Assembly: GCA_902801465.1 (NCBI GenBank)
Contig: CADCIH010000001.1
Span: 1-64,000 of the forward strand
Length of the DNA stretch: 64,000 nt
Direction of reading: 5' to 3'
Source of the DNA: an uncultured Bacteroidia bacterium
GTDB lineage: Bacteria > Bacteroidota > Bacteroidia > Bacteroidales > F082
Part shown: in pieces, positions 2,204-54,189 of the stretch
Layout of the letters: each line of letters opens with the position of its first letter
Numbering within the stretch: position 1 is the first letter of the stretch
Notes under the pieces: generated by a model
The model's database searches: none
What the model was told of the DNA's origin: nothing
The model's input: the letters and a program-made list of their open reading frames with translations, nothing else
Made by a program: the position numbers and the translations under genes

Positions 2204-2289
2204 AATTTGGAATGCGGAATGATGAATGTCGCAATGCGACACTGGGCTTTCCCCTAATTCCTAATTCCGCATTCCGCATTCCTAATTAA
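2204..2289. repeat. heptamer-unit inverted repeat, kbl-tdh spacer
   Basis: The left arm has the 7-bp units AATTTGG, AATGCGG, AATGATG. The right arm (from 2256) has AATTCCT, AATTCCG, CATTCCG, CATTCCT. GGAATGCGGAAT at 2209-2220 is perfectly complementary to 2264-2275. The centre differs from the other copies and contains its own small palindrome, TCGCAATGCGA. It could fold as a hairpin in the mRNA between kbl and tdh. Confidence 0.8.
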
Positions 2290-2303
2290 ACTATGATATA
2301 GCA

Positions 2304-3251
2304 ATGAAGAAAATATTGATCGTTGGTTCCGGCGGACAGATCGGAACAGAATTGGTGAAGAAGCTCCGTGCTACCTACGGAAACGAGAATGTGGTGGCCT
2401 CGGATCTTCGCCCTTTGACCGGTGAAATCGTTGAGAACGGTCCTTTTGAGAGAATCGACTCGACACAAATCATGCAGATCGTCGATGTGGTGAAACGCTA
2501 CAACATCGATACCATCTATAACCTCGCAGCTATCCTCTCGGCTACGGCTGAGAAGAACCCCATGCTGGGTTGGAATGTCGGCATCGGCTCTTTGGTGAAC
2601 TGCCTTGAAACGGCCCGTATCTTCAACTGTGCCGTCTTCACGCCTTCATCCATCGGAGCTTTTGGTGCCAGCACCCCACACGACAATACGCCTCAAGATA
2701 CCATCCAGCGCCCGAACACCATCTACGGTGTGACCAAGGTCACGGGAGAGCTGCTGAGCGACTATTATTTCACCCGCTTCGGCGTGGACACTCGCAGCGT
2801 CCGTTTCCCGGGCTTGATCAGCAACCTGACCCTGCCTGGCGGTGGTACCACCGACTACGCTGTGGAGATTTACTACGCTGCCGTGAAGGGCGAGAAGTTC
2901 TATTGCCCCATCAGCAAGGGTACCTATATGGACATGATGTACATGCCCGACGCTCTGGATGCCATGGTCGACATCATGGAGGCTGACCCGAGCAAGCTGG
3001 TGCACCGCAACTCGTTCAACGTGACGGCCATGAGCTTCGACCCGGAGATCATCTACAACGCCATCAAGAAGTATTATCCCAACTTTGAGATGGAGTACAA
3101 ATTCGATCCCATCCGTCAGGCCATCGCTGACAGCTGGCCGAACAAGATGGACGACAGCTGCGCTCGCAAGGAGTGGGGCTGGAACCCGAAGTACGACCTC
3201 GACAAGATGACGGTCGACATGATCGAGACCTTGAAGAAGAAGCTGCTGTAA
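2304..3251 (+). CDS. tdh: L-threonine 3-dehydrogenase, SDR (NAD-epimerase-like) type
   Basis: Oxidises L-threonine to 2-amino-3-ketobutyrate with NAD+, feeding Kbl. The protein has 315 residues. It opens with the Rossmann motif GSGGQIGTEL (about residues 8-17) and has the SDR catalytic pair YGVTK (Tyr141, Lys145). The family is the extended-SDR threonine dehydrogenase of Bacteroidota and eukaryotes, not the zinc alcohol-dehydrogenase type of E. coli. From sequence alone it could be read as a generic epimerase; the kbl neighbour makes TDH the best call. Confidence 0.88.
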   Translation: MKKILIVGSGGQIGTELVKKLRATYGNENVVASDLRPLTGEIVENGPFERIDSTQIMQIVDVVKRYNIDTIYNLAAILSATAEKNPMLGWNVGIGSLVNCLETARIFNCAVFTPSSIGAFGASTPHDNTPQDTIQRPNTIYGVTKVTGELLSDYYFTRFGVDTRSVRFPGLISNLTLPGGGTTDYAVEIYYAAVKGEKFYCPISKGTYMDMMYMPDALDAMVDIMEADPSKLVHRNSFNVTAMSFDPEIIYNAIKKYYPNFEMEYKFDPIRQAIADSWPNKMDDSCARKEWGWNPKYDLDKMTVDMIETLKKKLL

Positions 3252-3276
3252 TCACAAGGCAGTTTGTTTGATATAG

Positions 3277-3310
3277 AATAGCGGGGATGGCTTGTCTCCG
3301 CTATTTTTTA
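3277..3310. terminator. rho-independent terminator, probably bidirectional
   Basis: AATAGCGG at 3277-3284 pairs with CCGCTATT at 3298-3305, followed by a T run. It lies between the convergent tdh and barrel-receptor genes and overlaps the stop codon of the latter. Confidence 0.8.
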
Positions 3311-7710: not shown

Positions 7711-7713
7711 TTG

Positions 7714-7791
7714 AATTTAGAATTGATAATTTAGAATTTAGAGGGTTTTGTCGCCATCTCCCTCTAAATTCTAAATTCTTAATTGTTAATT
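7714..7791. repeat. heptamer-unit inverted repeat upstream of purN
   Basis: Left arm units AATTTAG, AATTGAT, AATTTAG, AATTTAG (7714-7741); right arm units CTAAATT, CTAAATT, CTTAATT, GTTAATT (7764-7791). The centre contains CTCCCT, as in the copy at 26675-26764. The stop codon and last residues of the adjacent secreted-protein gene (stop at 7779-7781) fall inside the right arm. Confidence 0.9.
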
Positions 7792-10208
7792 ATTCTTATT
7801 AGTACATTGTCATTTGGCTCAAGGTTAAACCAGATATAATAGTGGTCGCCCGACTTTCGGAAGTCATAATAGCGGTTGTCTTCGAAGCGAATGGGAGAGG
7901 GACAAAGCAAGGTGAAGCCTTTAACCTTCTTGCCGGTGTTATGTAGCAGGATGTGTTCTGCGTCAATAATCTCATAGCTTACGTTGAGTAATCCGCTGTA
8001 ATAGTCTAAATAGGTTTTGACGGTCATGGGAAGCATCTTGTGCTCGTCGCGGAGTTTGGCAATACGTGCGAAGGCACGGTTCATGCCGGGCAATGCCACA
8101 ATGGTGCTGTCGGCATCGTAGGTCCAGAAGGTCCTTCCAGGTCGCACCCAGGCGGGGTAGACGTGGGTGATGTGGACATCGTGGTTGTCGACAATGCGTT
8201 GAAGTCGCTGCTCGCTATAGTAGAAGTCCCAATCGTCGTCGGTGACAGCCTCGAGGGTCGAAGGGGTGCACCAAGTGAGGAACGGAAAACTGAAAACTGA
8301 GAACGGAGAATTTTCCGTTTTACCTCCCTCTGGTCGGTGAGGGCTTCGCCGTTCGGGATTCCGTTCTCCGTTTTCCGTTATCGTGGTAATCTGTCGGTTG
8401 GGAAGAGCGTCGCCGAAGCCAGGATAAGGCTGCATCAGGTTGTTGTCGAAATGCCATTGTTCCATGCGGTTCTCTTCGTAATAAGCATTCCAAAGGTATT
8501 TGATGCCGTGACTTTGCCATTGGTAGCCGGCGTAGTTTTCTGACTCATGGTCCAATCCGTCGCATACCATGTCCTCCCGGTTGTGAATCGGGCCGTTGTT
8601 GTAACCGTGATCGATCCAAGTGGTGGATTTGAAATGCCTCTGCATATAGTCCAAAGCCTCTTTGAGATTACTCGGTGTGGTAGTGTATTGCTCAGGGGTA
8701 TGCAGGCAAATATCGAAATCTAATTTATATAACTGTTTTAGTAGTTTATCAAACTCACGATCTGTTTTGATGGTGGTGTGCAGCCCTTTGAAAGTGCCAC
8801 GGCTGATGGCATCGTTGGTTATTTGATCGGGGTTGTTGTAGAAGACGCTTTTGGTGACTGGGATGCCGTAATACACGAAGCCTCCGATGGCATCTTTCGC
8901 TTTGGTGATCTTCTCGCTGCCGAAGAGTACGGCGCGGTGTGTGCGGATGTCGGTCCAGTCGGCGTGCTCAGTAAAGATGATGCCTGACTCATAGCCGTAT
9001 GGAATAGGCATGATTCGAGGTAGGTTCTGAACGTCATTGCCGTTATAGAGGACGATGTAATGACTCCATTCCATGCCTTGATAGACGTGTCGGCTGGAGC
9101 AATCTTCGAAATGGTTTTCCAGGGTGTCGCTCAGTGGATAATGGATCATGGGATGGTCTCGCCAATAGTCGATGTTGAAGTAGGCAACTCGGTTGGTAGC
9201 ATCGAACTGAGTAGAGGAGATGCCTGTTTGGTGGTAGGAGATGACGGTGCGTTGGCCTTCGCCTATCTTGAAGCCTTCACGATCCAAATAATACTCATTT
9301 TCCGTTATCCGTTCTCCGTTTTCCGTTTTCAGGTTTCTTCGATAGACGGTCAGAGTGCTGTCGACAAAGGGTACAACTATGCTCTTCCTCAACAGTTTTG
9401 CTTTTTTTGTGAATATGGTTCTGATATCGAAATTCGCACCTGGATAGTCTGTTGTCGAAGGGATATAAGTGGTGTCGATAGCTGAAACAGCGATGAATTC
9501 AAAAAGATAGTTTTTGGTATCTTTTGGCTTTTTGAAGAGTTGATACTCCGTTACCGTGTCTCCATTTAGAATGTATTCGGTCAGCATGCCGATGGGGTAG
9601 GTGACTGGCGTTTGCAGGGAATCGTCCGGTCTGAGGACAAAACTGTCTTCGGTAATACTGTCGCGTTGGATTGCTGGCAAGAAGCTCGGCATGGTCCAAG
9701 GTGTCAGTTCGATCTCGGCGTTGTCGACAAATACGCGGCTATGGTATCTGTTCCAGAGAAACAGTTTGGTGAGGCCGCCTTCCAAGTAGTCGTTGGGAAG
9801 GTTGGCCTCGATGTTGACGTGAAACCATCGTGCGCTGTCGGCGGCATAGTCGGAGAGTGGGTAACTGACCCAATAGCGGGTCTCGTTGCCTTTGGTGATG
9901 GTAAGGGCAATCTCACCCGTCCCCACCGTGTCGGGGAAACGAAAGTCCGCGTCGAAACGCAGTCGAAGGTTGTTTTTCCCAAGACTGTCGTTGAAAGTGC
10001 TTTTGAACTCCAGTCCGAACTCTCTTGTGGAGTCGCAAATGCATACCAGCCCTCTTTCTGGGTGAGTGCTGTCTGCGGCAAGTACGAGGTTTTCCCAAGG
10101 CGGATACCAGATATAGCCGTTGTCAAAGTCATTGCGATACAGCTGAGCCCTTGAAGTGAGCCCAGCTGTCAGCAACAATAACAATGCTATGAGTCGAATG
10201 CTACGCAT
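7779..10208 (-). CDS. secreted protein, possibly polysaccharide-deacetylase-like
   Basis: Exported protein of 809 residues (signal peptide MRSIRLIALLLLLTAGLTSRA). The first part of the mature protein (LYRNDFDNG, FHVNIEANLP, FVDNAEIELTP) looks like a jelly-roll carbohydrate-binding fold. The region near residues 400-560 has FTEHADWTD, DICLHTPEQ and WIDHGYNNGP, which resemble the Asp/His motifs of NodB-type polysaccharide deacetylases, but this is only a visual resemblance. Two heptamer-repeat segments sit in frame inside it, and its last residues come from a third. Its ATG shares a base with the ftsZ stop (TAATG), so it is probably translated with ftsZ at the end of the division cluster. Confidence 0.6.
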   Translation of the reverse strand: MRSIRLIALLLLLTAGLTSRAQLYRNDFDNGYIWYPPWENLVLAADSTHPERGLVCICDSTREFGLEFKSTFNDSLGKNNLRLRFDADFRFPDTVGTGEIALTITKGNETRYWVSYPLSDYAADSARWFHVNIEANLPNDYLEGGLTKLFLWNRYHSRVFVDNAEIELTPWTMPSFLPAIQRDSITEDSFVLRPDDSLQTPVTYPIGMLTEYILNGDTVTEYQLFKKPKDTKNYLFEFIAVSAIDTTYIPSTTDYPGANFDIRTIFTKKAKLLRKSIVVPFVDSTLTVYRRNLKTENGERITENEYYLDREGFKIGEGQRTVISYHQTGISSTQFDATNRVAYFNIDYWRDHPMIHYPLSDTLENHFEDCSSRHVYQGMEWSHYIVLYNGNDVQNLPRIMPIPYGYESGIIFTEHADWTDIRTHRAVLFGSEKITKAKDAIGGFVYYGIPVTKSVFYNNPDQITNDAISRGTFKGLHTTIKTDREFDKLLKQLYKLDFDICLHTPEQYTTTPSNLKEALDYMQRHFKSTTWIDHGYNNGPIHNREDMVCDGLDHESENYAGYQWQSHGIKYLWNAYYEENRMEQWHFDNNLMQPYPGFGDALPNRQITTITENGERNPERRSPHRPEGGKTENSPFSVFSFPFLTWCTPSTLEAVTDDDWDFYYSEQRLQRIVDNHDVHITHVYPAWVRPGRTFWTYDADSTIVALPGMNRAFARIAKLRDEHKMLPMTVKTYLDYYSGLLNVSYEIIDAEHILLHNTGKKVKGFTLLCPSPIRFEDNRYYDFRKSGDHYYIWFNLEPNDNVLIRIINN
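8284..8382. repeat. heptamer-unit inverted repeat inside a coding sequence
   Basis: Left arm GGAAAAC, TGAAAAC, TGAGAAC, GGAGAAT (8284-8311); right arm CCGTTCT, CCGTTTT, CCGTTAT (8361-8381). The middle contains CTCCCTC, as in the intergenic copies. It is read in frame as ENGERNPERR..., with no stop, in the secreted-protein gene. Confidence 0.85.
9297..9330. repeat. heptamer-unit repeat, single arm, inside a coding sequence
   Basis: Four consecutive units CCGTTAT, CCGTTCT, CCGTTTT, CCGTTTT at 9302-9329, translated on the minus strand as KTENGERITEN within the same secreted protein that carries the copy at 8284-8382. Confidence 0.8.
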
Positions 10209-15232: not shown

Positions 15233-16531
15233 TTATGCTTCTCCCTCTTCACTTTCCACTTTAAACTCTCCACTTTCCACTCCCATCTCCTCGTCCTCCA
15301 CGCTTCTTGTGACACTTAAGATGATTCCCACCGCCACACCAGTCATCAGCATCGACGAGCCGCCCTTGCTCACGAAGGGTAGTTGCTGTCCGGTGACGGG
15401 TAACAATCCTGTGGAAACGCCCATGTTGATCATCGCCTGCACGATGAGGATGAAGGCGATGCCAAACGCCATCAAGGCGCCGAAACTGAGGGGACGTCTC
15501 TTCATTATGCGGATGGCTCGGGTAAACAGGATGATGTAGAGCAACATCACAAAGAGGCCTCCCACCAATCCGTATTCCTCGATGATGATGGCGTAGATGC
15601 AGTCGGAGAAGGGCTGGGGCAGGAAGTTGCGCTGGGTGCTCTTTCCTGAGCCCTTGCCGAATAATCCACCGCGTGCCACGGCAATCTTGGCGTAGGTCTT
15701 TTGTGCGTTGCGGTCGTCGATTTGCAAAGGTGCCTTCTCGCCACCATTGGACTGTTTGGCTTCCTTTTCCATCTTCATGGCTTCGATACGGCCTTCCCAA
15801 GTCTTTACTCGGCTCACCCTAGGCTTGCGCATGGCTCTCTCTTGCAACTTGACATCCTCGGGGTGTTCTTGAGCCAGTTGCACGGTCCGCTCATAACGTT
15901 TCTGGGCGCGGGTGGCAAAAATGTCGTCGGTCAGGATGTACAAGCCCATGCCCGCCACAATGATGCCTATGAGTGCCAGGATGTAGTTGATCTTGATCTG
16001 TCCGATGAACATCATTACAATGCATACCAGGAACAGCATGGCTGCGGTGGAGAGGTTCTCGGGGAAAATGGGCGCCACGATCAGTATGATGGGCAGGAAG
16101 AGATGAATGAACAAGTCTTTGAATTTGTAGTCGCGCTGGTTCCAAACCACGATGTGTTTGGCAAGATAGACGATGAGCACGATCTTGGCCAACTCGCTGG
16201 TCTGGAAGCCCATGATGCTTCTCGATGCGCCGTTGATGCGGCTCCCGAAGAAGTAGGTGAAGACGAGCAGCAGACAGCACAAAAGCAGCATGATCTCAAT
16301 GGCGCGTGAATAACGCCGGTAATCGAGCCTTGAAGCCAGGAAGATCATCACAAACCCGGCCAGCAAGGTGGTGGCATGCTTCAGCAACACCTTGTCGTTG
16401 TAAACCCCGAAGCGGACATGTGCTTCGGAGCTGGTGGCGCTGTAAACCGCCAGCAGTGAGATCACACCGAGGATGAACATCACCACCCAGATGACCCTGT
16501 CGCCTTTCAATATCTTGTTAATCCAACTCAC
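15233..16531 (-). CDS. ftsW: peptidoglycan glycosyltransferase FtsW
   Basis: SEDS-family polymerase that makes septal glycan from lipid II with its partner FtsI. The 432 residues have about ten hydrophobic helices, the family motifs GFQTSELAKI and NMGVSTGLLPVTGQQLPFVSKGG, and the large hydrophilic loop between residues of roughly 210 and 300 that is usual in Bacteroidota. The last 15 or so residues (GVESGEFKVESEEGEA) are encoded by a heptamer-repeat element. Confidence 0.96.
   Translation of the reverse strand: MSWINKILKGDRVIWVVMFILGVISLLAVYSATSSEAHVRFGVYNDKVLLKHATTLLAGFVMIFLASRLDYRRYSRAIEIMLLLCCLLLVFTYFFGSRINGASRSIMGFQTSELAKIVLIVYLAKHIVVWNQRDYKFKDLFIHLFLPIILIVAPIFPENLSTAAMLFLVCIVMMFIGQIKINYILALIGIIVAGMGLYILTDDIFATRAQKRYERTVQLAQEHPEDVKLQERAMRKPRVSRVKTWEGRIEAMKMEKEAKQSNGGEKAPLQIDDRNAQKTYAKIAVARGGLFGKGSGKSTQRNFLPQPFSDCIYAIIIEEYGLVGGLFVMLLYIILFTRAIRIMKRRPLSFGALMAFGIAFILIVQAMINMGVSTGLLPVTGQQLPFVSKGGSSMLMTGVAVGIILSVTRSVEDEEMGVESGEFKVESEEGEA
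15251..15285. repeat. heptamer-unit repeat forming the ftsW 3' end
   Basis: Five consecutive 7-bp units: ACTTTCC, ACTTTAA, ACTCTCC, ACTTTCC, ACTCCCA. They encode the C-terminal tail of FtsW. No opposite arm is evident. Confidence 0.8.
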
Positions 16532-17088: not shown

Positions 17089-17091
17089 AAC

Positions 17092-17119
17092 TTTTATCTT
17101 TTATCTCTTATCTTTTATC
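17092..17119. repeat. heptamer-unit repeat between mraY and the MurD fragment
   Basis: Four consecutive units TTTTATC, TTTTATC, TCTTATC, TTTTATC. The mraY stop codon (17115-17117) lies in the last unit. A related copy is at 49070-49104. Confidence 0.8.
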
Positions 17120-18392
17120 TAATCTTGAATGTCAGAAGCGTAAACGCCGCCAACAAAATGGTCACAATCCAGAATCGAATGGTGATCTTCACCTCATGGT
17201 GGACGGTGTTGTATCCTTCGCCATGGCCTTTGAAAGTGACTGTCGAGTTGGGCCAGGCTTTTTTGAAGTCGCTGTAGCTTGTCCTGAAGTGGTCGTGCAA
17301 CGGGGCTTTCTTCCAGATACGGTGTTTCTTGCCGTGTTTCACAAAATGTCCGACATCGAAGTTGGCGAAGATCTCGAAGAGGAACACACCGCAGAGCAGG
17401 GGTAGCAACAGTTCCTTGTGCATGATGATGGCCGATACTGCGATGATGCCGCCGATGGTCAGGCTTCCAGTGTCGCCCATGAAGATTTGGGCGGGATAGG
17501 AGTTGAACCACAGGAAACCGATGAGGGCTCCAACGAATGCGGCCAAGAACACTACAAGTTCTTCGCTTCCAGGGATGTACATCAGATTGAGGTAGCTGGC
17601 GCTGACTGCATTACTGGAGATGTATGCCAAGATGAGCATCGTTAAACCTATGATTGCGGAGTTGCCCGAAGCCATGCCGTCCATGCCGTCGTTGAGGTTG
17701 GAGCCGTTGCTGACGGCTGCCACGATGAAGACGGTGAGAAGCACAAGGAATACCCATGCCAAGTTGTACATCCACTTGGGACCTGCCCATTTGAAGAGGT
17801 CTGCATAGTTGAGGTCGTGGCTCTTCACGAACGGGATTGTGGTACGGGTCGACTTTACGTCGGGACTCTTTACCACTATTTCTTTGTTGTTCTCGATTTT
17901 CAGCTGCACCGACTCGTTGATTTGCACGGCGGGACTCATACGCAGCGTGAGTCCGACAATGAGTCCGAGCAAGACCTGTCCGCCCAGTTTCACTTTCGGT
18001 TTCAGGCCTTCCTTGTTGTGCTTGAAGGTCTTGATGTAGTCGTCGGCAAAACCCAATATTCCGAGAATCAGCGTGGTGACAATCATCAGCAGGGTGTAGA
18101 CACTGTGGAGTTTTCCCACCAGTAGAACTGGGATGAGGATGGATGCGATGATGATGACGCCTCCCATGGTGGGTACGCCCACTTTCTTGGTGTTATATGG
18201 GTCGATGCTGGCGTCGCGCTGGGTCTCGGTGACTTTCTTGTGTTTCAGCATCTTGATGAACCAGTTGCCAAACCATACCGATACGATGAGCGACAGGATG
18301 ATGGCAATGGCGGCTCGTGAGGTGACGTAATTGAATGCGCCCGCTCCGGGGAAGTTGATTTCTTGCAGATACTGAAACAGGTAGTATAACAT
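17115..18392 (-). CDS. mraY: phospho-N-acetylmuramoyl-pentapeptide transferase
   Basis: Ten-helix membrane enzyme that makes lipid I from UDP-MurNAc-pentapeptide and undecaprenyl phosphate. The 425 residues include the family marks FADDYIK (catalytic Asp pair), NLNDGMDGMA, FMGDTGSLTIGG and the late HHxE-like PLHDHFR region. An extra loop between residues of about 150 and 200 is common in Bacteroidota. It is four bases after murE. Confidence 0.97.
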   Translation of the reverse strand: MLYYLFQYLQEINFPGAGAFNYVTSRAAIAIILSLIVSVWFGNWFIKMLKHKKVTETQRDASIDPYNTKKVGVPTMGGVIIIASILIPVLLVGKLHSVYTLLMIVTTLILGILGFADDYIKTFKHNKEGLKPKVKLGGQVLLGLIVGLTLRMSPAVQINESVQLKIENNKEIVVKSPDVKSTRTTIPFVKSHDLNYADLFKWAGPKWMYNLAWVFLVLLTVFIVAAVSNGSNLNDGMDGMASGNSAIIGLTMLILAYISSNAVSASYLNLMYIPGSEELVVFLAAFVGALIGFLWFNSYPAQIFMGDTGSLTIGGIIAVSAIIMHKELLLPLLCGVFLFEIFANFDVGHFVKHGKKHRIWKKAPLHDHFRTSYSDFKKAWPNSTVTFKGHGEGYNTVHHEVKITIRFWIVTILLAAFTLLTFKIR

Positions 18393-18395: not shown

Positions 18396-19895
18396 TTATT
18401 TCTCCTCTAATGCTTTTGATAGTTCTTCTTTGTCGTCGAAATGGCGTTTTTCGCCTTTGATGATCTGATAGTCCTCATGGCCCTTGCCAGCCAGCAGGAT
18501 GATGTCGCCTTTCTTGGCCAGCGCCACCGCGGTGCGTATGGCTTCCCGGCGGTCGGTGATCGAGAGCACCTTTGACATGTCTTTGGGCTCGAGGCCGGCT
18601 TTCATCTGGCGGATGATCTCTTCTGGGTCCTCATTGCGGGGATTGTCGCTGGTGAGGATGACACGGTCGCTGAGACTTACTGCCACGGCGGCCATCTCAG
18701 GACGCTTGGTGGTGTCACGGTTGCCGCCACAACCCACCACGGTGATGACGAGCGGAGAACTGAGAACGGAGAACGGAGAACTTTCCGTTTTCCGTTTTCC
18801 GTTTTCCGTTTTCACCTCGTTGATGGTCTTGAGTACGTTCTCCAACGCATCTGGGGTGTGTGCGTAGTCCACGATCCCTACGATGCCGGTGTCGCTATGA
18901 ACCATGTCGAACCTGCCATTGGCACCTTGCAACTTGCTGAGTTCCACGAGGAGTTCGTCCTTGTCGAACCCTAGGCTGATGGCTGCACCGTAGATGGCGA
19001 GGATGTTGCTGGCATTGAAGCCGCCCACCAAGCGGGTAAAGAGCTCCGTTCCGTTGATCTTCATCAACATGCCGTCGAAGTGGCTTTCCATCACCAATCC
19101 TTTGAAGTCGGCCTCGTGTTTCAAAGCGTAGCTCAACTTCTTTGCGTTGGTGTTTTGCAGCATCACCGCCCCGTTTTTGTCGTCGAGGTTGGTGAGGGCA
19201 AAGGCACTGGCCGGAAGGTCGTCAAAAAATTTCTTCTTGGCGTTTCGGTAGTTGGCCATGGTTTTATGATAGTCGAGATGGTCGTGTGTCAGGTTGGTGA
19301 AGATGCCTCCCGCGAAATGCAGACCAGCGATACGGTGCTGGTCGATGGAGTGGGAGCTGACTTCCATGAAAGCGTATTCGCAGCCATGGTCCACCATCTT
19401 GCGGAGCAAGGCGTTGAGCTCTACGGGGTCAGGGGTGGTGTGGGTGGCGGGGATGACTTCATGGTCGATGATGTTCTCTATAGTGGATAACAGTCCGCAG
19501 GCGTAACCGGCATCGGTGAACAATCTGTAGAGTAATGTGGCGATGGTCGTCTTGCCATTGGTGCCTGTCACTCCTGTGAGCTTTAGCGACCTTGAGGGAT
19601 TGCCGTAGAAGTTGGAGGCTCCCACGCCTAACACGTAGGCGCTGTTGTCGACACGGATGTAGGTGACGTTGGGGCTCAGTGTCTTGGGCATCTTCTCGCA
19701 GATGATGGCGCTGGCGCCTTGCTCCACGGCCTTGTCAATATAGTCATGGCCGTCGGTCTGGGTGCCTCTTATCGCGAAAAACAAGGTGCCTGGCTCCACT
19801 TGGCGTGAGTCGAACGACACTTTGGTGATGTCGAGGTCTTTGTCACCCACCAGTTCCAGCAAGTTGCAGTTGACGATGATATCTTTGATTTTCAT
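18396..19895 (-). CDS. murE: UDP-MurNAc-tripeptide synthetase with in-frame repeat insertion
   Basis: Adds the third stem-peptide residue to UDP-MurNAc-dipeptide. The 499-residue protein shows the ATP loop [33 protein letters not shown] and, near residue 410, SDNPRNEDP. The DNPR form marks meso-diaminopimelate as substrate. Residues of about 361-381 ([20 protein letters not shown]) are not part of the fold: they are encoded by a heptamer-repeat element lying between the central and C-terminal domains, just before [12 protein letters not shown]. It overlaps ftsI by four bases. Confidence 0.97.
18754..18815. repeat. heptamer-unit inverted repeat inside murE
   Basis: Left arm GGAGAAC, TGAGAAC, GGAGAAC, GGAGAAC (18754-18781); right arm TTTCCG and then TTTTCCG three times (18782-18808). 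It is open in the murE frame and lengthens the protein by about 21 residues at a domain boundary. Confidence 0.9.
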
Positions 19896-21949
19896 TTCTT
19901 TTCCAGTGTTAATTCGATTAAACCTCCCGGCCGCAGCGAGTCGCCCGCGGGTACCGATTGATGGACGACTTGTCCGTAGCCTTCGAAAGTGGTGGTCCAG
20001 CCCATGTTCTCAAGCAAATACACGGCGTCGCTGATGTTCATCCCTTGCACGTTGGGGACGCGCATCGGGTCGTATAGTATGGGGTTGGTGTCGTAATGGT
20101 ATTCGGCGTCCCTGATGGTGAGGGGCTCTGTCTCGATCAAGCCTTTGATCTTGGTGGCATAAACCCGGTCGGCAATCTCCTTGAAGGCTGGCGCGGCCAC
20201 CTTGCCTGCGGAATAGAACCTGCCTTTGGCTTTGCTGATCACCACGATGCAGCTGTAGACCGGATGCTCGGCGGGGAAGAACCCGACGAAGGTGACGTTG
20301 TAGTCGCGTTCCCATCTGCCTTCAGCGTTGATCCACTTGTAGGCTTTCTTCTCCACGTTGTAAAGCTGTGCCGTTCCGGTCTTTCCGGCGATGCCGTATT
20401 CGGTGCCCTTCAAGGCCTTGGCCGTGCCGCGGAGGACGACACCTTTCATCATGCTCTGCAAGGTGTCGATGGTTTTTTTCGAGGCGATATGTTCGTTAAG
20501 GACGACGGGCTCGATGGTCTCGAGGGTGACGCCTTCCTTTCGGATCTCTTTGACAAACTGGGGTTTCATCATCCTGCCTCCGTTGGCGACTGCGTTGTAG
20601 AGTGTGAGGATTTGCAATGGGGGCAGTCTGAGTTCGTAGCCGATCGACATCCAAGGGAGAGAGGTCTTTGACCAATTGTTCTTGTTGAAAACGGGGTGTT
20701 TGATATACGGCTTCGCCTCGCCCGCCATTCCTGTCCCCAACGGTGTGTTCAAGCCCATTGCGTAGAGGCCGTTGATGTAGCGTTCGGGGGCGTTCCCGAA
20801 GTAGTCGGTGATGAGTTTGGCGGTGCCTTTGTTGGAGGATTGTTCGAACACCTCGCGTATGGTTACCCTGCCGTCTTCGTTGACGGGGTGGTCGTCGTAC
20901 ATCTTCTTGTTGGAGAAGGTGAGGGGGGTATGGGCGCGCCCGATGTTGAGGTTGCGGGTGTTGACGTTAAGCTCAGGATAGGTCTCGAGCAGCACGAGCA
21001 TGGAGGCGAGTTTGAAAGTCGATCCGGGCTCTATGCCTACGCCCAGAGCGAAGTTGTAGCCTTCGAAGCACTGGTTGGTTTTCTTGTCGCGTTGCAGGTT
21101 GGTGATGGCTTTCACTTCGCCGGTAGCCACTTCCATGACGATGGCGCAGCCTTGTTCGGCGACGTTGTCGACGACGGCGTTGCGAAGCGCGCGTTCCGCG
21201 ATATCTTGGATGCTGATGTCGATGGTGGTTACCACGTCGTTGCCGTTGATGGCGTCGATGTTGTTGACGTCTTCAACAGGAATCCAGGTGCCGTGGTGGA
21301 GGTGACGTTGCTTGTGGCGTCCGTTACTTCCGCGGAGTATGCTGTCGCAGGCACTTTCGAGTCCTACGAGTTTGTCGTCGCTCACATAGCCTATGGTGCG
21401 TTCGGCCAGGGTGCCGTAAGGGTGGTTGCGTTTGAATTTGGGTTGCGACATGCAGAGACCTCCCTTGAGACTTCCTTTGTTGAGGATGGCGAAGGTCTTC
21501 ATCTCCTGGCACTGGCCCAAGGTGACGTTGAGGTCGACGAGGAAGTATCTCTTGTTGTTGGTCTTGGCTTCGACGAGGCCTTTCTTCCATGTCTTGGCGT
21601 CGCGTTTTGGGAACATGGTGGCGAGTTGTTGGCTGAGTTGGTCGATGCCGGCGTAGAAGGCGGTGTCATCGATGACTGACGGGTCGATGCCTACTTCATA
21701 GATGGGGACGTCGGTTGCCAGAACGCTGCCGTCGGAGGCGAGGATGTCGCCGCGCGATGCCCACAGCGTGTCGAAACGGGTCTCCACCTGCTCGGCGAGG
21801 GCTCTCAGCTCGTCACCCTCTCTGGTCTGCACCAGCAAAGCCTTGATGATGATGGTAGCCCCTACCGCCAACACCCCGATATATACCAGGAATGTCCTGA
21901 TCATGCAACTCGTTTTAGGCTCTCTTTTCATCTCTTTCTCCTTTTTCAC
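19892..21949 (-). CDS. ftsI: septal penicillin-binding protein FtsI with PASTA domain
   Basis: Class B transpeptidase that cross-links septal peptidoglycan. The 685 residues begin with a short basic tail and one membrane helix ([20 protein letters not shown]). A dimerisation region follows, then the transpeptidase domain with GSTFKLAS (catalytic Ser), SSNKGTAK and GKTGTAQ. A single C-terminal PASTA domain ([20 protein letters not shown]...) is usual in this phylum. ATG 21931 (MKREPKTS) is an alternative start. Confidence 0.97.
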
Positions 21950-22311
21950 TCCTCATTTCTGACTTCAAACTCCTCGTTCTCAGTAAATACTGTCCTTGTC
22001 TCCAGCGATTCTTTCAAGCCTTGCTCCTTGAGTTTCTCGATTAATACTTTTTGTGTTGACTCTTTGGTATAGGCTGATTTGGCATAGGTATATTCCACGC
22101 GGAGGTCGCGTAGCCTGTTGGAGTTGTTCTTGATGGCGCGGCTGGTGCTCTCTGCGATGTAGGCGTTGGTGATGATGAGCATCAGCAGTATGGTGAGGTA
22201 CACGAGGAATGGGAATATCTTGGAGAAATCCTCGCGTGTGAGGAAGCTGCCTCCCAGAATGTTCATGACCATTCCGCCCTTCGATGTCTTTTCTTTGCGT
22301 TCTCTTTTCAT
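21946..22311 (-). CDS. ftsL: FtsL-like cell division protein
   Basis: Small divisome protein of 121 residues: a basic cytoplasmic start, one membrane helix (FPFLVYLTILLMLIITNAYI), then a predicted coiled coil (TSRAIKNNSNRLRDLRVEYTYAKSAY). Sequence similarity to other FtsL is weak, as always; the position between rsmH and ftsI and the architecture support it. The tail [11 protein letters not shown] is encoded by heptamer-repeat units. Confidence 0.85.
   Translation of the reverse strand: MKRERKEKTSKGGMVMNILGGSFLTREDFSKIFPFLVYLTILLMLIITNAYIAESTSRAIKNNSNRLRDLRVEYTYAKSAYTKESTQKVLIEKLKEQGLKESLETRTVFTENEEFEVRNEE
21948..21982. repeat. heptamer-unit repeat forming the ftsL 3' end
   Basis: Five 7-bp units ACTCCTC, ATTTCTG, ACTTCAA, ACTCCTC, GTTCTCA, encoding the acidic C-terminus of FtsL. 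The units are more degenerate than in the other copies. Confidence 0.6.
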
Positions 22312-25775: not shown

Positions 25776-26399
25776 ATGATTATCAAAGACGCACATTTCG
25801 TTTCTAGCAACTCCAAAATCGACAGACTGCCCAAGGATAACATTCCTGAGTATGCCTTCATCGGACGCTCTAACGTTGGAAAGTCGTCGCTGATCAATAC
25901 CCTGGTGCAACGTCGCGCATTGGCCAAGACCTCGGCCACACCAGGCAAGACCATCGCCATTAACCACTTCATGGTCAACGATAGCTGGTATCTGGTGGAC
26001 CTTCCTGGCTATGGCTACGCCCAACGCTCCAAGAAAGCCCGCGAGGAATGGCGCGTGATGCTGGCCAACTACATCCGCCGCCGCCGCAACCTGATCTGTA
26101 CCTTCGTGCTCGTCGACTCACGCATCGAACCGCAAAACAGCGACATCGGCTTCATGGAATGGCTGGGCGAAAACCAAGTCCCGTTCTGTATTGTGTTTAC
26201 AAAGGTGGATAAAATCAGTAAAGTAGAATTAGATAAAAATATAGAAATATATAAGTCTAAACTTCTCGAAGAATGGGAGGAACTTCCACAAATGTTTATT
26301 ACTTCCTCCGAGACGAAACAAGGACGTGACGAACTGCTTGACTATATCGAACAACAAAATGCCGAGTTGGAAAAATACTTGAAAACCAACGGCCTATAA
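25776..26399 (+). CDS. engB: ribosome biogenesis GTP-binding protein EngB/YsxC
   Basis: TRAFAC GTPase for late 50S assembly. The 207 residues show G1 [10 protein letters not shown], the G2 region TPGKT, G3 [10 protein letters not shown]4 FTKVDK and G5 TSSETKQG, in normal order. It is three bases after the GNAT gene and probably cotranscribed. Confidence 0.97.
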
Positions 26400-26426
26400 A
26401 TTCTAAATTATTAATTCTAAATTGTT
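26399..26426. repeat. heptamer-unit repeat, engB to YeaQ-type gene
   Basis: Four units AATTCTA, AATTATT, AATTCTA, AATTGTT directly after the engB stop and 4 bp before the next ATG. No second arm is seen. Confidence 0.7.
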
Positions 26427-29956: not shown

Positions 29957-29981
29957 AATTAATAATTTAGAATTTGGAATT
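29957..29981. repeat. heptamer-unit repeat before the beta-mannosidase start
   Basis: AATTAAT, AATTTAG, AATTTGG and a partial unit, ending at the ATG at 29982. It has no stop in the downstream frame, so an earlier in-frame ATG (29952) could be used, with the repeat translated. Confidence 0.65.
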
Positions 29982-32252
29982 ATGAGGGATTGGCGACACA
30001 TCATTCTTGTCTTTTCTTTGACCATTCTTTTTGTTTCCTGCTCCAAACACCAAAATGTCGTCGAACAAGCCTTGTCACAAGGCTGGACCCTTACGGGCGA
30101 CACACTGGATATTAATCTGCCAGTCAATGTGCCATCGGTGGTGCAACAAAACCTATACGACGCGGGACTGATTCCGCATCCATATTTGGGCACCGTGGAA
30201 GAGACTCTGCTTTGGATCTCCGATCACCCATGGACCTACGCCACCCATTTCAACGTGGATCAAAATATGCTCGAAAAAGACGTGGTGGAATTGGTGTTTG
30301 AAGGAATCGACACCTACGCGTCAGTGACTCTCAATGGACAGAAACTGTTTGACGCCGACAACCAATTCCGTATCTGGAGAACTGATGTGAAGCCGCTGCT
30401 AAAAGACCAAGACAACCTTTTGGTGCTGGACTTCCCGCGTTACGACAGCCTCCAACTCGCACTTTACAACGACCATCAACCTCGTCTGCCTGAGAAATAC
30501 GCCGTTACCCGCAAAGCACCTTACCAACATGGTTGGGATTGGGCACCTAAATATAAAAACGTGGGCATCTGGAAACCTGTGAGTCTCGTGGCCTGGTCCA
30601 ACGCCAGACTCGATAACGCCTACATCGTCACCAATGAGGTTGAGGAAGAACAGGCAAAACTGACACTGCATCTCGATGTGGAAAGCACCGCCCCGGGCGA
30701 CTATACGGTTGAAATTCTTAGCAACCGTAAAGTGCTCCAAAAGTTTCCACTTCAGGCCGATCAAGGTAACCAACATAAAATGTTCAGTTTCACCGTCGAG
30801 AATCCCCGTCTTTGGTGGCCCAACGAGATGGGTGAGCAATACCTTTATGATTTTGAAATCCGATTGAAATCATCAGATAAGATATTGGACTCAAAACAGA
30901 TAAAAACGGGTGTCAAGACAGTCCAAATCGTTCAGGAACCTGACGCAAAAGGCTTTTCGTTCTATTTTAAGGTGAACGGAGTGCCTATGTATGCCAAGGG
31001 CGCCAATTACGTTCCTGAGGAGATGATAGAGACCTGGATCAAGCCCGAAAACACCCAAAAGCTCTTGAAAATGGCCCAAGAGGCGCATTTCAATATGCTG
31101 CGTGTCTGGGGTGGAGGCATCTATCCCTCCGACGACTTCTTCAATATCTGCGACACCTTGGGCATCTTGGTCTGGGAGGACTTCATGTATGCTGGCACGA
31201 TGTACCCTTACGACGAGGCTTTCCTTGAAAACGCCAAGATCGAAGCCTTGGAGCAGGTGAAACGCCTGGCATCGCATCCCTCACTGGGCCTGTGGTGTGG
31301 CGGCAATGAGATTTCTGAAGGCTATTACAACTGGGGCTGGCAACAGTCCTTGGACTGGTCGGAAGAGGACGACCAAGCCATCAAAGCGGGTTACGACCGC
31401 CTCTTTGAGACCATCCTGCCCAATGTGGTCGAGATTTTTGACGGCACCCGTCCCTATTGGCCGAGCTCGCCTTCGAAAGGCTGGGGACGACCCGAGAGCT
31501 TGACCCAAGGCGATGTGCATTACTGGGGCGTGTGGTGGGGAGAACAACCATACGAGATGTATCGTGAGAAAGTGGGGCGATTCAATAGCGAATACGGCTA
31601 TCAGAGCTATCCCGATTACTCCACGTTGGAGAAGATAGCCCAAGGCGAACCGCTTTCAAAAGATGCCAAAGTGATTGCGGCACACCAGAAACATGCCCGT
31701 GGTACCCAACTGATCGACGACTTCATCCAACGGTATTATCCCGAAGCCCAGCCAAATGACTTTGAAGAATATGTGTATCTGAGCCAACTGTCGCAAGCCT
31801 ACGGCATGGAGATCGCCATTGAGGCGCACCGTACAGCCAAACCTTACAACATGGGTACGCTCTATTGGCAACTCAACGATGCATGGCCGGTGACCTCCTG
31901 GTCATCAGTCGACTATTATGGCAACCCCAAAGTCTTTCATGAAAAGCTGAAAACCCTCTTCGCTCCCGTGCTGCTTTCACTGGATCGGAGGGACTATCAA
32001 GTATATGTGACGTCAGACTTGATGCGTAATATCGATGGAACGCTGACAGTCACAGTGAACGATGTGGATGGGGCTTGCCTGTTTGAACAAAAAGCGAAGG
32101 TCTCGATGAAAGCGAACCAGAACAGCAAGTTCCACGTGGAAGGACTCCGCGAGTTCTTGTGGAACACGGATCCGCAAACCATCACGATCAACATGCAATT
32201 GACGGAAGGCGACAGCGTAACGGCCGAGCGACACTTACCGGGAAGCCACTAA
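29982..32252 (+). CDS. GH2 beta-mannosidase, lipoprotein
   Basis: Hydrolyses terminal beta-mannosides, probably at the periplasmic face of a membrane. The 756 residues start with a lipoprotein signal (ILVFSLTILFVSCSK). The sugar-binding jelly roll (GWTLTGDTLDINLPVNVPS), the Ig-like domain and the TIM barrel follow in GH2 order. WCGGNE supplies the acid/base Glu at about residue 443 and FNSEYGYQS the nucleophile Glu at about residue 537. ATG 29982 was chosen because it begins a normal lipoprotein signal; in-frame ATG 29952 and TTG 29949 would add repeat-encoded residues. It overlaps the convergent anti-sigma gene by 18 bases. Confidence 0.93.
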   Translation: MRDWRHIILVFSLTILFVSCSKHQNVVEQALSQGWTLTGDTLDINLPVNVPSVVQQNLYDAGLIPHPYLGTVEETLLWISDHPWTYATHFNVDQNMLEKDVVELVFEGIDTYASVTLNGQKLFDADNQFRIWRTDVKPLLKDQDNLLVLDFPRYDSLQLALYNDHQPRLPEKYAVTRKAPYQHGWDWAPKYKNVGIWKPVSLVAWSNARLDNAYIVTNEVEEEQAKLTLHLDVESTAPGDYTVEILSNRKVLQKFPLQADQGNQHKMFSFTVENPRLWWPNEMGEQYLYDFEIRLKSSDKILDSKQIKTGVKTVQIVQEPDAKGFSFYFKVNGVPMYAKGANYVPEEMIETWIKPENTQKLLKMAQEAHFNMLRVWGGGIYPSDDFFNICDTLGILVWEDFMYAGTMYPYDEAFLENAKIEALEQVKRLASHPSLGLWCGGNEISEGYYNWGWQQSLDWSEEDDQAIKAGYDRLFETILPNVVEIFDGTRPYWPSSPSKGWGRPESLTQGDVHYWGVWWGEQPYEMYREKVGRFNSEYGYQSYPDYSTLEKIAQGEPLSKDAKVIAAHQKHARGTQLIDDFIQRYYPEAQPNDFEEYVYLSQLSQAYGMEIAIEAHRTAKPYNMGTLYWQLNDAWPVTSWSSVDYYGNPKVFHEKLKTLFAPVLLSLDRRDYQVYVTSDLMRNIDGTLTVTVNDVDGACLFEQKAKVSMKANQNSKFHVEGLREFLWNTDPQTITINMQLTEGDSVTAERHLPGSH

Positions 32253-47724: not shown

Positions 47725-47731
47725 GATATCT

Positions 47732-47752
47732 CTAAATTCTAAATTCTAAATC
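47732..47752. repeat. heptamer-unit repeat between purA and the ATP-grasp gene
   Basis: Three units CTAAATT, CTAAATT, CTAAATC in the 29-bp gap. Confidence 0.7.
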
Positions 47753-49061: not shown

Positions 49062-49069
49062 CTTTGAAC

Positions 49070-49104
49070 TTTTATCTTTTATCTATTAACTCTTATCTTT
49101 TCTT
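49070..49104. repeat. heptamer-unit repeat between fur and purA
   Basis: Units TTTTATC, TTTTATC, TATTAAC, TCTTATC and a partial unit. The fur stop codon (49086-49088) and its last residues KDKS lie within it. Related to 17092-17119. Confidence 0.75.
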
Positions 49105-51727: not shown

Positions 51728-51747
51728 GTCATGTTTTTTTTAAATCG

Positions 51748-51783
51748 CAAAGTTACCAAAAAAATAATTATTGTTTACCTTTG
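51748..51783. promoter_or_regulatory. divergent -7 boxes, rsh operon and T9SS surface protein
   Basis: Minus strand TAACTTTG at 51755-51748 (21 bp before rsh); plus strand TACCTTTG at 51776-51783 (20 bp before the ATG at 51803). Confidence 0.55.
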
Positions 51784-51802
51784 CAATTCAAAAAATAACT
51801 GT

Positions 51803-54112
51803 ATGCGTAAACTTTTTTTCATGGCTTTCCTGCTCTTGCTGGCGTTGCCCGCATGGGCTACCCATCAACGTGCCGCTGAGATCACATACGAGTGGAAGGG
51901 CGGCAATGCATACGAGTTTACGCTTACCTGTTATACCTACACCCCCAGTCTGGCAGGCATGCAACGCGACTCGCTCTTGGTGATGTGGGGCGACGGCTTC
52001 GGAGACTATGTTCCGCGCGTAGTCTACCAAAACCTCGGCGACGACTATACCTTAAACGTGTATCGTATGGTTCACAATTACTCATCGTCAGGCTCTTATG
52101 TGATCAGCATGGAGGACCCCGACCGCAACTACGGCGTGGTCAACGTGCCTAACTCTGTCAGCGTACCCATGTATATCGAGACGGAACTCGTCGTCAACCC
52201 CTTCCTGGGTTACAACAACTCGGTACAACTGCTCAACCCACCTGTCGACAAGGGCTGTGTGGGCAAACCGTTCTACCACAACCCTTCGGCATACGACCCT
52301 GATGGCGACAGCCTTAGCTATCGCCTAGTGCCTTGCAAGGGCGTCAACGGAGAGGACATCCCTGGATATGCTTACCCCCAGACGTCGAGCCTTTTCGATA
52401 TCGATCCCGTCACGGGCGTGCTGCAATGGGAAAACCCCATGCTTCAAGGAGAATACAACGTGGCCATACTCATCGAAGAGTGGCGCCATGGCGTGAAGAT
52501 CGGATCAGTCATCCGTGATATGCAGATATTAATTAATGCCTGTAACAACAACCTTCCTCAAATTAATATGATTAGCGACACTTGTGTTGTTGCAGGTAGC
52601 ACGATTGATTTCGTTGTCACCGGCTCTGATCCTGATGGCAACCAAGTGACATTGGAGGCTTCCGGCGCGCCTTTCCAACTGGCTGTCAGCCCAGCTGTGA
52701 TGACACCGCCTACCGATCATGGCCTAAACCCTGCTTTTGAGTTCACCTGGCAAACCCAATGCAGCCACATCCGTAAGATGCCATATCAGGTGGTTATCCA
52801 TGCCAAAGACGACTCGTTCCCCATCCCGCTCTCGAATGTCCGTGCAGTCAATATCACAGTGATCGGTCCCGCGGTGGAGAACCTCCTAGTTGAAAACGGA
52901 AAACGTAAAACGGATAGTTCTCCGTTCTCCGTTATCAGTTTTCAACTTTCCTGGTCTCCCTATGCCTATTGTGCCAATGCCAAAGCGATGCGTGTGTATC
53001 GCCGTATGGGATCCAACCCATACGAACCGGATTATTGTGAGACGGGTGTGCGTCCTGGCTATCAGCTCATCGCCGAACTCCCCGCCAACGCTACGTCATA
53101 TATCGACGACAATGGAGGAATCGCCTTCGAACAAGGAGTGGATTACTGCTATCGTGTGGTGGCGCTCTTTAACGATGGCGCCGAGAGCCGCCCGAGCAAT
53201 GAGGCCTGCGTGATGATTCCGAATAACCAACCGCTGGTGACGCGCGTCTCTAACGACGAGGGGGACCTTCTCAATGGTACAATGCTGGTTGAATGGACAA
53301 AACCTCAGGAAATCGATCCCCAATTCGTTGAACCTTATACCTATCGCCTGATCCGTAACCTCGATGGGGTGGAAAGCACTGTCTATTCAGGCCAGGAAGC
53401 CTCCTATCATGATACGGAAGTGAATCTTGCCGATGTGCAATCGCTCTCGTATAAAGTGGAAATGAAAGACGCGAACCAGACCGTGATGGGTACGAGTACT
53501 CCTGCCGGAGCAGTGCTTCTTGCTGGTGTCGGTGGCGACAAGACGGCATTGTTGAATTGGACCGAAACGGTTCCCTGGGTGATCGACAGCACCGAGGTGT
53601 TCAAAAAAATCGATACAGTCTTTGTGAAAATGGCAAGCACTACAGCGATGGAATACACCGATGTCCATGTCGTGAACGAAGTCACCTATCAGTATTATGT
53701 GCGTACTTTTGGACACTACACGTTGGAAGGTCTGCCCCGTCCACTGGTGAATTATTCTGCCATCGTCGAGGTGAAACCCACCGAGGAAGAGCCGGAGCCA
53801 GAACCTGATGAGCCCGTGTATGTGTTGCCCAATGTGTTCACCCCGAACGGCGATGGGATTAATGATGTGTTCGTCCCCAAAGAGATCACGCCTGATTTGA
53901 TCAACCGTGTGGAGATGCATATCTTCAACCGTTGGGGTCGTTTCGTGTACAACACCAACGACATCTTCATCAATTGGGACGGACGTGCCTCTGGTAGTGG
54001 ACAGCCCTGCTCCCCGGGAACTTATTTCTATGTCTGCGACGTGGAAATGCAAACCCCCGAAGGGCCTGTCTCCAAGCGACTTCAGGGAAGCGTTATGATA
54101 ATTAGGAATTAA
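51803..54112 (+). CDS. secreted protein with T9SS type B (gliding-associated) C-terminal domain
   Basis: Protein of 769 residues with signal peptide MRKLFFMAFLLLLALPAWA. The mature part has several Ig/cadherin-like repeats (YDPDGDSLSYRLVPC, GSDPDGNQVTLEA) and fibronectin-like segments. The end, VLPNVFTPNGDGINDVFVP...MHIFNRWGRFVY...WDGRASG...GTYFYVCDV, is the CHU_C/type B sorting signal of the type IX secretion system, so it should be exported to the cell surface. A heptamer-repeat insertion is translated in frame near residues 364-381. No T9SS machinery gene is in the window. Confidence 0.9.
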   Translation: MRKLFFMAFLLLLALPAWATHQRAAEITYEWKGGNAYEFTLTCYTYTPSLAGMQRDSLLVMWGDGFGDYVPRVVYQNLGDDYTLNVYRMVHNYSSSGSYVISMEDPDRNYGVVNVPNSVSVPMYIETELVVNPFLGYNNSVQLLNPPVDKGCVGKPFYHNPSAYDPDGDSLSYRLVPCKGVNGEDIPGYAYPQTSSLFDIDPVTGVLQWENPMLQGEYNVAILIEEWRHGVKIGSVIRDMQILINACNNNLPQINMISDTCVVAGSTIDFVVTGSDPDGNQVTLEASGAPFQLAVSPAVMTPPTDHGLNPAFEFTWQTQCSHIRKMPYQVVIHAKDDSFPIPLSNVRAVNITVIGPAVENLLVENGKRKTDSSPFSVISFQLSWSPYAYCANAKAMRVYRRMGSNPYEPDYCETGVRPGYQLIAELPANATSYIDDNGGIAFEQGVDYCYRVVALFNDGAESRPSNEACVMIPNNQPLVTRVSNDEGDLLNGTMLVEWTKPQEIDPQFVEPYTYRLIRNLDGVESTVYSGQEASYHDTEVNLADVQSLSYKVEMKDANQTVMGTSTPAGAVLLAGVGGDKTALLNWTETVPWVIDSTEVFKKIDTVFVKMASTTAMEYTDVHVVNEVTYQYYVRTFGHYTLEGLPRPLVNYSAIVEVKPTEEEPEPEPDEPVYVLPNVFTPNGDGINDVFVPKEITPDLINRVEMHIFNRWGRFVYNTNDIFINWDGRASGSGQPCSPGTYFYVCDVEMQTPEGPVSKRLQGSVMIIRN
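52891..52944. repeat. heptamer-unit inverted repeat inside the T9SS protein gene
   Basis: Left arm TGAAAAC, GGAAAAC, GTAAAAC, GGATAGT (52891-52918); right arm CCGTTCT, CCGTTAT, CAGTTTT (52922-52942). Translated as ENGKRKTDSSPFSVISFQ, nearly the same peptide as in murE ([16 protein letters not shown]). Confidence 0.88.
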
Positions 54113-54189
54113 GAATTAGGAATTCGGAATGTAGAGAGTTCTCGCTATAGATCTTTTAATTCCGAATTCCGAATTCCTAATTCTTAATT
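54101..54189. repeat. heptamer-unit inverted repeat between the T9SS gene and gapA
   Basis: Left arm ATTAGG, AATTAAG, AATTAGG, AATTCGG, AATGTAG; right arm AATTCCG, AATTCCG, AATTCCT, AATTCTT. The stop codon of the upstream gene (54110-54112) lies in the left arm. It stands between convergent genes and may act as a transcription end. Confidence 0.85.

Follow-up and report, generated by a model that had tools for sequence, protein, structure and literature searches.

Dispersed arrays of 7-bp units in an uncultured Bacteroidales genome as possible very small mobile-type repeats

The first 64,000 nucleotides of contig CADCIH010000001.1 (assembly GCA_902801465.1, an uncultured member of the Bacteroidales), hereafter the window, carry many short arrays of tandem 7-bp (heptamer) units, some of them laid out as two inverted arms. 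The explanation we favour, with evenly balanced confidence, is that these are dispersed non-coding arrays behaving as very small mobile-type repeats, with unit-wise growth and copying between loci. The source assembly comprises 2.46 Mb in 34 contigs, and our sample of it, 464 kb, consists of the window plus 400 kb taken as 20 stretches of 20 kb from contigs 1-4 in a non-random draw. Stretches from other genomes carry L numbers and genomes carry G numbers (L008 lies in G037 and L009 in G038); the closest named relatives are uncultured Bacteroidales whose isolate names point mostly to ruminants and other herbivores. Arrays were called with a period-7 detector at a score of at least 10 or at least 12, and gene contexts follow from a crude longest-open-reading-frame (ORF) rule.

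Excess and unit families of the arrays

At a score of at least 10, the detector reported 18 period-7 arrays in 11 elements in the window, compared with a mean of 0.06 and a maximum of 1 in 50 first-order Markov shuffles; each other period from 3 to 13 gave 0-3 arrays. At a score of at least 12, the 464-kb sample contained 100 period-7 arrays and each of five shuffles contained none, with 0-4 arrays for each other period from 4 to 13. These counts, far above those of shuffled sequence, bear out the initial annotation, which had proposed 7-bp arrays at 15 sites: Tandem Repeats Finder reported period 7 at 13 of them, and at the two that it did not report, 21948 and 29957, the arrays are degenerate and related heptamers can still be read. 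The sample holds 85 elements at a score of at least 10, or 18 per 100 kb, so that the whole genome would hold about 450 if the sample is typical. Most are single-armed (58/85), and 29 of the 85 lie inside genes.

Four unit families cover 111 of the 113 arrays in the sample, and two arrays fit none:

Family A, GGAAAAC-like: 54 arrays
Family B, AGATAAA-like: 23 arrays
Family C, GAATTNN-like: 29 arrays
Family D, AGAAGNN-like: 5 arrays

The median number of copies per array is 4.4 in families A, B and C and 3.7 in D, with a lower limit set by the detector threshold. Among 207 family A units, four sequences make up 180 (GGAAAAC, 90; GGAGAAC, 54; TGAAAAC, 19; GGAAAGT, 17). A is invariant at position 3 (207/207) and nearly so at position 5 (206/207), whereas position 4 varies (142 A, 61 G, 4 T). 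Random decay would scatter substitutions over all positions, yet just two of the 21 single-substitution variants of GGAAAAC account for 73 of the 89 units that differ from it in this way. So short a menu could result either from founder copying or from selection acting on the unit. Array start and end phases are also biased, a result confounded by unit heterogeneity, which is a possible cause. No GGG occurs in units found at least three times in the sample, unit borders included; we therefore group these arrays with heptamer repeats in general and not with the G-quadruplex subclass.

The elements of the window are as follows:

2197..2282, no strand assigned: two-arm element of GAATGCG/GAATTNG units, between two plus-strand genes
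7713..7791, no strand assigned: two-arm element of GAATTTA units with inner ends AGAGGG...CCCTCT, between two minus-strand genes
8281..8379, no strand assigned: two-arm element of GGAAAAC/GGAGAAC units, within ORF 7779-10208; the loop of the element contains a degenerate 31-bp insert (8322-8360), of the type described below
9298..9337, minus strand (the purine strand): single array of GGAAAAC units, within ORF 7779-10208
15250..15281, minus strand: weak array of GGAAAGT-type units, at the 3' end of the ftsW-like ORF 15233-16531
17091..17120, minus strand: single array of AGATAAA units, between ORF 17115-18392, which from gene order we take to be mraY, and ORF 16543-17088
18755..18813, no strand assigned: two-arm element of GGAGAAC/GGAAAAC units, in frame within murE (18396-19895, minus strand)
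21935..21985, no strand assigned: degenerate array at the gene junction 21946/21949
26397..26427, minus strand: array of GAATTTA/GAATTAA units, at the 3' end of ORF 25776-26399
26682..26764, no strand assigned: two-arm element of GAATTTA/GAATTAA units, at the 3' end of the mutS2-like ORF 26763-29393
29957..29988, plus strand: degenerate array of AATTTAG-type units, near the start of ORF 29949-32252
47731..47751, minus strand: single array of GAATTTA units, between minus-strand genes
49062..49095, minus strand: single array of AGATAAA/AGTTAAA units, between minus-strand genes
52892..52944, no strand assigned: two-arm element of GGAAAAC/GGAGAAC units, within ORF 51719-54112 (CHU_C domain)
54100..54190, no strand assigned: two-arm element of GAATTAG/GAATTCG units, between convergent genes

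Similar CTCCCT loops had been noted at 7714, 8284 and 26675. The likeness is real at 7714 and 26675, where CTCCCT is the inner end of AATTTAG-type elements (AGAGGG...CCCTCT, inner ends shared by L118, L124 and, in part, L130), but at 8284 the motif has another origin, as part of the degenerate copy of the separate 31-bp insert. The window also contains tandem repeats of other periods: a 22-bp array, TTATTTAATTTTTATTAACATT, at 56805-56857 (2.4 copies, 100% matches), a 48-bp tandem duplication at 55665-55764 within ORF 55463-56614, and 15-, 24- and 30-bp repeats at 41107-41451, which are lysine-, proline- and glutamate-rich if read in ORF 40782-43631.

Orthologous sites and lineage repertoires

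The initial annotation had suggested comparing orthologous loci with and without an element, and this comparison indicates that the arrays are not fixed: relatives carry another family, or none, at the same site. ORF 18396-19895 was identified as murE by its Mur ligase domains, and its in-frame element contributes a 21-residue peptide segment to the protein, where a gap of 14 residues is present in the best-matching PDB chain. This loop was compared in the 80 named relatives: it reads KTENGKW... in L001, KVESGKWKVE... in L003, KTENG... plus STLNSQL in L005, QLPT.NCQL in L006, L008 and L009, and STLN.QL in L011, L012 and L026; it is short and repeat-free in L002, L004, L007 and most others. The site at the mutS2-like 3' end carries a two-arm AATTTAG element in our genome and L012, a two-arm AGGAGTG element in L008 and L009 and a two-arm AGGTGAA element in L010, and is an array-free spacer of 23-33 bp in L001, L002, L003, L005 and L034 (the site is unreadable in L004, L006, L007 and L011). 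At junction 17091, AGATAAA units occur in our genome, L001, L003, L004, L006, L008, L009 and L034, a mixture running into AGAAGTA in L005, AATTTAG-type units in L012, AACTNNN-type units in L011, and little or nothing in L002, L007 and L010. The junction orthologous to 21946/21949 holds clear arrays in L001, L004, L005, L008 and L009. Sites 9301 and 15250 are array-free in L002, the sole clean comparison for each and, at 9298..9337, the relative of highest DNA identity; no relative has flanks matching those of site 8281.

In the murE region, 18.3% of 180 pairs of arrays at different sites of one genome reached a similarity of at least 0.85, as did 5.3% of 1993 pairs at different sites of different genomes. 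Among random pairs, the share was 24.5% of 3933 in our sample, 14.3% of 2879 within G037, and 4.9% of 3000 between our genome and G037. Pairs at the same site in different genomes reached it in 25.5% of 220 cases (L008/L009, counted apart, 12/12). A genome-wide repertoire thus exists, alongside retention by descent.

Length change could be followed between G037 and G038, the closest genome pair in the comparison, which share 142 kb of aligned segments at 90.3% identity; because one genome per species was compared, all length changes are between species. Within this alignment, L008 and L009 are 95.6% identical over 21 kb, with internal indels of 7, 7, 4, 14, 9, 42 and 38 bp, all except the 4-bp one in or beside heptamer arrays. 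Flanks of 15 of 16 G037 elements were found in G038; length differs at 10 of these 15, and in five of the 10 the difference is 7, 14, 14, 14 or 42 bp. The comparison of this one close genome pair shows that array length changes by 7-bp units. A G038 array was counted for 12 of the 15 elements. Two of the other three (36140 and 52867) are mapping failures, as the reverse comparison finds arrays there in both genomes (G038 contig 9 at 32628 and 18322). At the third, near 54855 of G037 joined contig 13, G038 has unrelated sequence instead of the array, and this sequence is similar to an array found elsewhere in G037. In the reverse direction, G037 has an array at the site of each of the 13 G038 elements. 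These relatives (G037/G038, for example L155-L172 and L234-L248) also contain a second, frequent repeat, GTCATTGCGAG...GCAATCC / GGATTGCCACG...CGCAATGAC; GTCATTGCGAG occurs nine times in 352 kb of G037 and not in the 464 kb of our genome, and this repeat adjoins a heptamer array at one compared site.

Unit-wise change is what would be expected if independent chance 7-bp duplications were simply extended in place by a polymerase moving in 7-nt steps, with nothing moving between loci. No intergenic periodic repeat is commoner in prokaryotes than the heptamer, according to the consulted parts of a survey (PMC6344855), and Mrazek 2007, as cited in passages of PMC4679880 and PMC4692102, proposed a link to the length of DNA that the polymerase contacts. 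However, local slippage does not readily account for a restricted unit menu in which four families cover nearly all arrays, for lineage-specific repertoires, or for differing families at one site in related species, and we consider it distinctly unlikely as the sole process.

The arrays extend beyond this genome. They were found in 12 of 17 genomes of the genus (one stretch each), with other units that include TTAGCCT, AAAGTTT, TCAATTA, GCTGTTG and AGATAAT, and in none of three genomes from other taxonomic families within the order (20 kb each). Array density per 100 kb is 21.6 in our genome, 13.0 in heptamer-rich relatives, 2.7 in heptamer-poor relatives and 2.6 in other Bacteroidota, the rich and poor groups having been formed after array counts had been looked at; period 7 leads the other periods in each group. 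Outside all groups remain L132, L133 and L136 (0 arrays each) and the overlapping L081-L110, L138 and L140. An exact AAAACGG triple is present in two of 395 genomes of the phylum, ours among them. In IMG/VR, AAAACGG arrays occur in 18 and AATTAAG arrays in 39 stretches, with many different sample numbers.

Other heptamer-rich sequences came to light in these searches. GGCAAAA arrays, found through a reversed control pattern, occur in G371, G386, G092 and G418 (L250-L279), of the same phylum and a different class, one run in G371 exceeding 100 bp. L072, from a Paludibacteraceae metagenome-assembled genome (MAG), has seven arrays in 11.6 kb with units AGGCGAC and AAGAAAC and represents a second heptamer-rich lineage. 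Some viral-labelled IMG/VR contigs (among L316-L372) are array-dense (19 in L363; 17 in 6.6 kb of L323), carry other units such as AGGGATT, and may be host fragments.

Two-arm layout, gene context and origin

The frequent two-arm inverted layout reported initially is real: of the 28 pairs of adjacent arrays in the 464-kb sample, 25 consist of two inverted arrays from one family. A miniature inverted-repeat transposable element (MITE) would have defined terminal inverted repeats; the arms here are inverted and vary in length. The purine-rich arm comes first in all 25 pairs. Because a palindrome reads alike on both strands, this order belongs to the element itself, not to the transcript. The purine arm is also first in 11 of 12 pairs in heptamer-rich relatives and two of two in more distant genomes, and in none of one in the poor group. 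We considered a universal polarity and rejected it, as only 20 of 28 pairs in 57 IMG/VR stretches fetched by pattern conform, and pairs with GTTTTCC or CCGTTTA units are pyrimidine-first in 3/3; together with the poor group, these exceptions make polarity look family- or lineage-specific. Nor is the two-arm layout general, since 400 kb of G371, distant within the phylum, contain 11 arrays at a score of at least 12 and no same-family inverted pair.

Many elements abut start or stop codons or come close to them. In spacers between genes of the same direction, the purine strand of single arrays is the sense strand in 20 of 23 cases in our genome and 27 of 39 in relatives (arrays of ambiguous composition, five and 14, respectively, were set aside). 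Among multi-array elements in spacers of our genome, nine of 18 lie between convergent genes, compared with 63 of 368 neighbouring gene pairs; this enrichment was not replicated in relatives, where it applied to one of five intergenic multi-array elements. Such contexts could indicate that selection maintains the arrays as sites to which a protein or RNA-binding domain binds, reading a short core every 7 nt, the degenerate unit positions being those that the putative binder does not read. The sense-strand bias (20:3 and 27:12), the convergent placement in our genome and the division of the unit into nearly invariant and variable positions agree with this explanation, one position table being partly circular because arrays were chosen by core. 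In the parts consulted of a study of TAACTGA repeats, MacGregor proposed S1, Csp or Csr-type binders (PMC4679880). A shared binder is nevertheless difficult to reconcile with four families at equivalent places in one genome, with orthologous sites that are empty or of another family in related species, or with the elements inside genes, and founder copying would likewise confine variation to few positions. We therefore regard selection for binding as an unlikely explanation.

Intergenic palindromes that, in our genome, are enriched between convergent genes could also be ordinary intrinsic terminators. In a terminator scan of positions 1-20000 and 24001-64000, none of the four intergenic two-arm elements (2197, 7713, 26682 and 54100) was terminator-like, the criterion being a GC-containing stem with a T tract after it, and the two calls that overlap elements (18762-18799 and 8302-8319) both lie inside genes. 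The numbers of calls (18, 25 and 16) were within one standard deviation of shuffles. As the elements are also mostly single-armed and not fixed in relatives, we give this explanation very little credence.

Repetitive extragenic palindromic (REP) singlets and the REPINs that contain them are dispersed, non-autonomous repeats that occur as single and inverted-pair forms. Mobilization of the arrays by a RAYT (a Y1 transposase), as REP-type elements, would fit the single and inverted-pair forms of fixed polarity, and Y1_Tnp was found in 17 of 21 genomes, ours among them. Unlike in REPIN/RAYT systems, however, the Y1 genes are not flanked by arrays: none of 20 examined has an array within 500 bp, the shortest distance being 828 bp. 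The search yielded no Y1_Tnp in G032, G033, G035 or G036 (MAGs that may be incomplete), although their loci L003, L004, L006 and L007 hold arrays, and beyond the family units we noticed no conserved, REP-like sequence across elements. RAYT mobilization is thus highly improbable. The same can be said of RNA-templated heptamer addition by a telomerase-like reverse transcriptase, which would suit short tandem units drawn from a limited menu: seven of the 20 genomes of relatives searched, among them those that contain heptamer-rich L006 and L012, yielded no RVT_1 (our genome lay outside this search, and the MAGs used may be incomplete), and some heptamer-poor genomes have it.

The initial annotation had argued for a shared origin rather than unrelated low-complexity DNA, and one period, four families and, in our genome, one polarity uphold that argument. 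It had named slippage or a mobile palindromic element as the mechanism, and there is some evidence for each: unit-wise length change (by slippage or unequal exchange) on the one hand and spread between loci on the other. From the restricted, lineage-specific families we infer copying between loci. In the mechanism that we favour, an existing array would grow or shrink by whole 7-bp units, as seen in the close genome pair, and a few unit families would be copied between loci of one genome, as the comparisons of array similarity support, giving each lineage its own repertoire and, over evolutionary time, allowing one family to displace another at a shared site. Copies would survive mainly where they do little harm, in gene ends, spacers and surface loops, so that the same few sites would be refilled repeatedly. 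The likeliest copying route would be template switching, recombinational or replicative, from one short match to another. This might also generate the inverted two-arm form; a trans-acting enzyme is a possible alternative agent. The arrays probably have no single gene-regulatory function, yet alter untranslated regions and proteins.

Several observations weigh against this mechanism. Five of the 10 length differences between G037 and G038 are 8, 9, 18, 38 and 62 bp, of which the 18 bp reflects the replaced site and the 62 bp a failure to bridge the site. There is no clean empty site in G038 among the 15 orthologous G037 elements. No target-site duplication of arrays was found in comparisons with relatives at 75-81% DNA identity and in one pair at about 90%, which offer no clean junctions, and neither a mobilising enzyme nor a copying event was caught in the genomes compared. 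Same-site similarity (25.5%) indicates that descent at a site also matters. The IMG/VR occurrences could have arisen by wide transfer, or by convergence on heptamers that are favoured, and not by copying within a genome, and the mechanism does not account for the preference for exactly 7 bp.

A nested 31-bp insert and known heptamer repeats

Some family A arrays contain a 31-bp insert with the consensus ACCTCCCRTTCGGTCGGTGAGCCCTTCGGGG. Allowing up to three mismatches, we found 13 copies in our genome, 20 in G008 and none in 19 further genomes; five of 16 additional genomes, some of them of the same species as earlier ones, contain 3, 10, 2, 1 and 1 copies, for a total of 50 copies in seven of 37 searched genome handles. 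Copies of ACCTCCCRTTCGGTCGGTGAGCCCTTCGGGG lie in L186-L210 and L300-L315. TT flanks both sides of the insert in 39 of 40 distinct copies. Among the 26 arrays that span the insert, removal of the insert plus 2 bp (0 to 6 tried) best restores the 7-bp register in all 26, and within arrays the insert lies directly after the last T of a run. Other copies interrupt sequences of the form ...GGATT/GCCACG... and GTCATT/GCGAG... likewise. Insert-bearing arrays occupy different loci in our genome and in G008, as judged from the 12 of 13 and 13 of 20 copies, respectively, that were compared, with only one flank match, of 37 bp. The 31-bp insert is thus a tiny insertion that has TT repeats and is lodged within arrays that already existed, and it may move by itself or travel with the arrays. 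A longer element bounded by the insert ends was rejected: when the two ends were sought separately in six genomes, those listed shared one short spacing apart from some unpaired ends, with left and right ends numbering 12 and 13 in G000, 3 and 3 in G013, 10 and 12 in G030, 1 and 1 in G032, 1 and 1 in G037, and 22 and 18 in G008.

Comparison with described heptamer repeats draws on portions of the papers cited. The Xanthomonas and Nostoc heptamers GGGAATC and GGGGA(C/T)T are dispersed and mostly intergenic (Rehm 2015, PMC4692102); their units are degenerate at certain positions, four units are preferred, length and sequence vary at conserved sites between species, and convergent inverted pairs number 70 and 75 in two Xanthomonas. 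The arrays described here are similar in having a 7-bp unit above chance, dispersal, single arrays as well as convergent inverted pairs, and about four preferred units. They differ in that the portions consulted describe one G-quadruplex-forming unit type, whereas several families without GGG coexist per genome here, arrays often lie inside genes, and orthologous sites carry differing families. Direct repeats of TAACTGA in Beggiatoaceae, Cyanobacteria and some Bacteroidetes lie mostly just upstream of start codons (MacGregor 2015, PMC4679880). This unit appears here as AACTGAT in L008 at 7810, at the junction orthologous to window 21948. In the Beggiatoaceae genome, as far as those sections go, one unit is favoured, related heptamers are rarely repeated, and there is one inverted repeat among 170 sets, in contrast to the several families and many two-arm elements here. 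In Geobacter metallireducens, 49 dispersed elements of four tandem GGGACCG heptamers lie between and inside genes (PMC2700814); there, in the text consulted, the repeat is a single unit family, termed predicted regulatory RNA elements. Finally, a survey of 7006 prokaryote genomes found heptamers to be the most abundant intergenic periodic DNA repeat, with no clear functional clue, and in the parts consulted contains no comparison of orthologous sites (Mori 2018, PMC6344855). Dispersed heptamers, convergent inverted pairs (in Xanthomonas) and the general abundance of heptamers were therefore known already. New here are the coexisting families, the family swaps at orthologous sites, the in-frame array in an essential gene and the nested insert; we recognised no description of multi-family heptamer elements in Bacteroidales in a literature search covering few subscription journals.

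This genus separates possibilities that were formerly tangled. No G-quadruplex is needed for the layout, a site can keep its period while its unit sequence changes, and each lineage has its own repertoire. The density in the sample, about 18 elements per 100 kb, and the many related genomes make it possible to measure how arrays are gained, lost and replaced, and the murE insertions show heptamer repeats feeding new peptide segments into an essential enzyme. A bolder proposal, which we put forward only tentatively and consider doubtful, is that the arrays are a distinct class of minimal mobile DNA, in which a 7-nt unit grammar alone defines each family and a dedicated process copies the families to further loci. 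If so, such families would displace each other at shared sites, enter essential genes and host 31-bp passengers, and the widespread intergenic heptamers of prokaryotes would be products of such a dedicated copying process.

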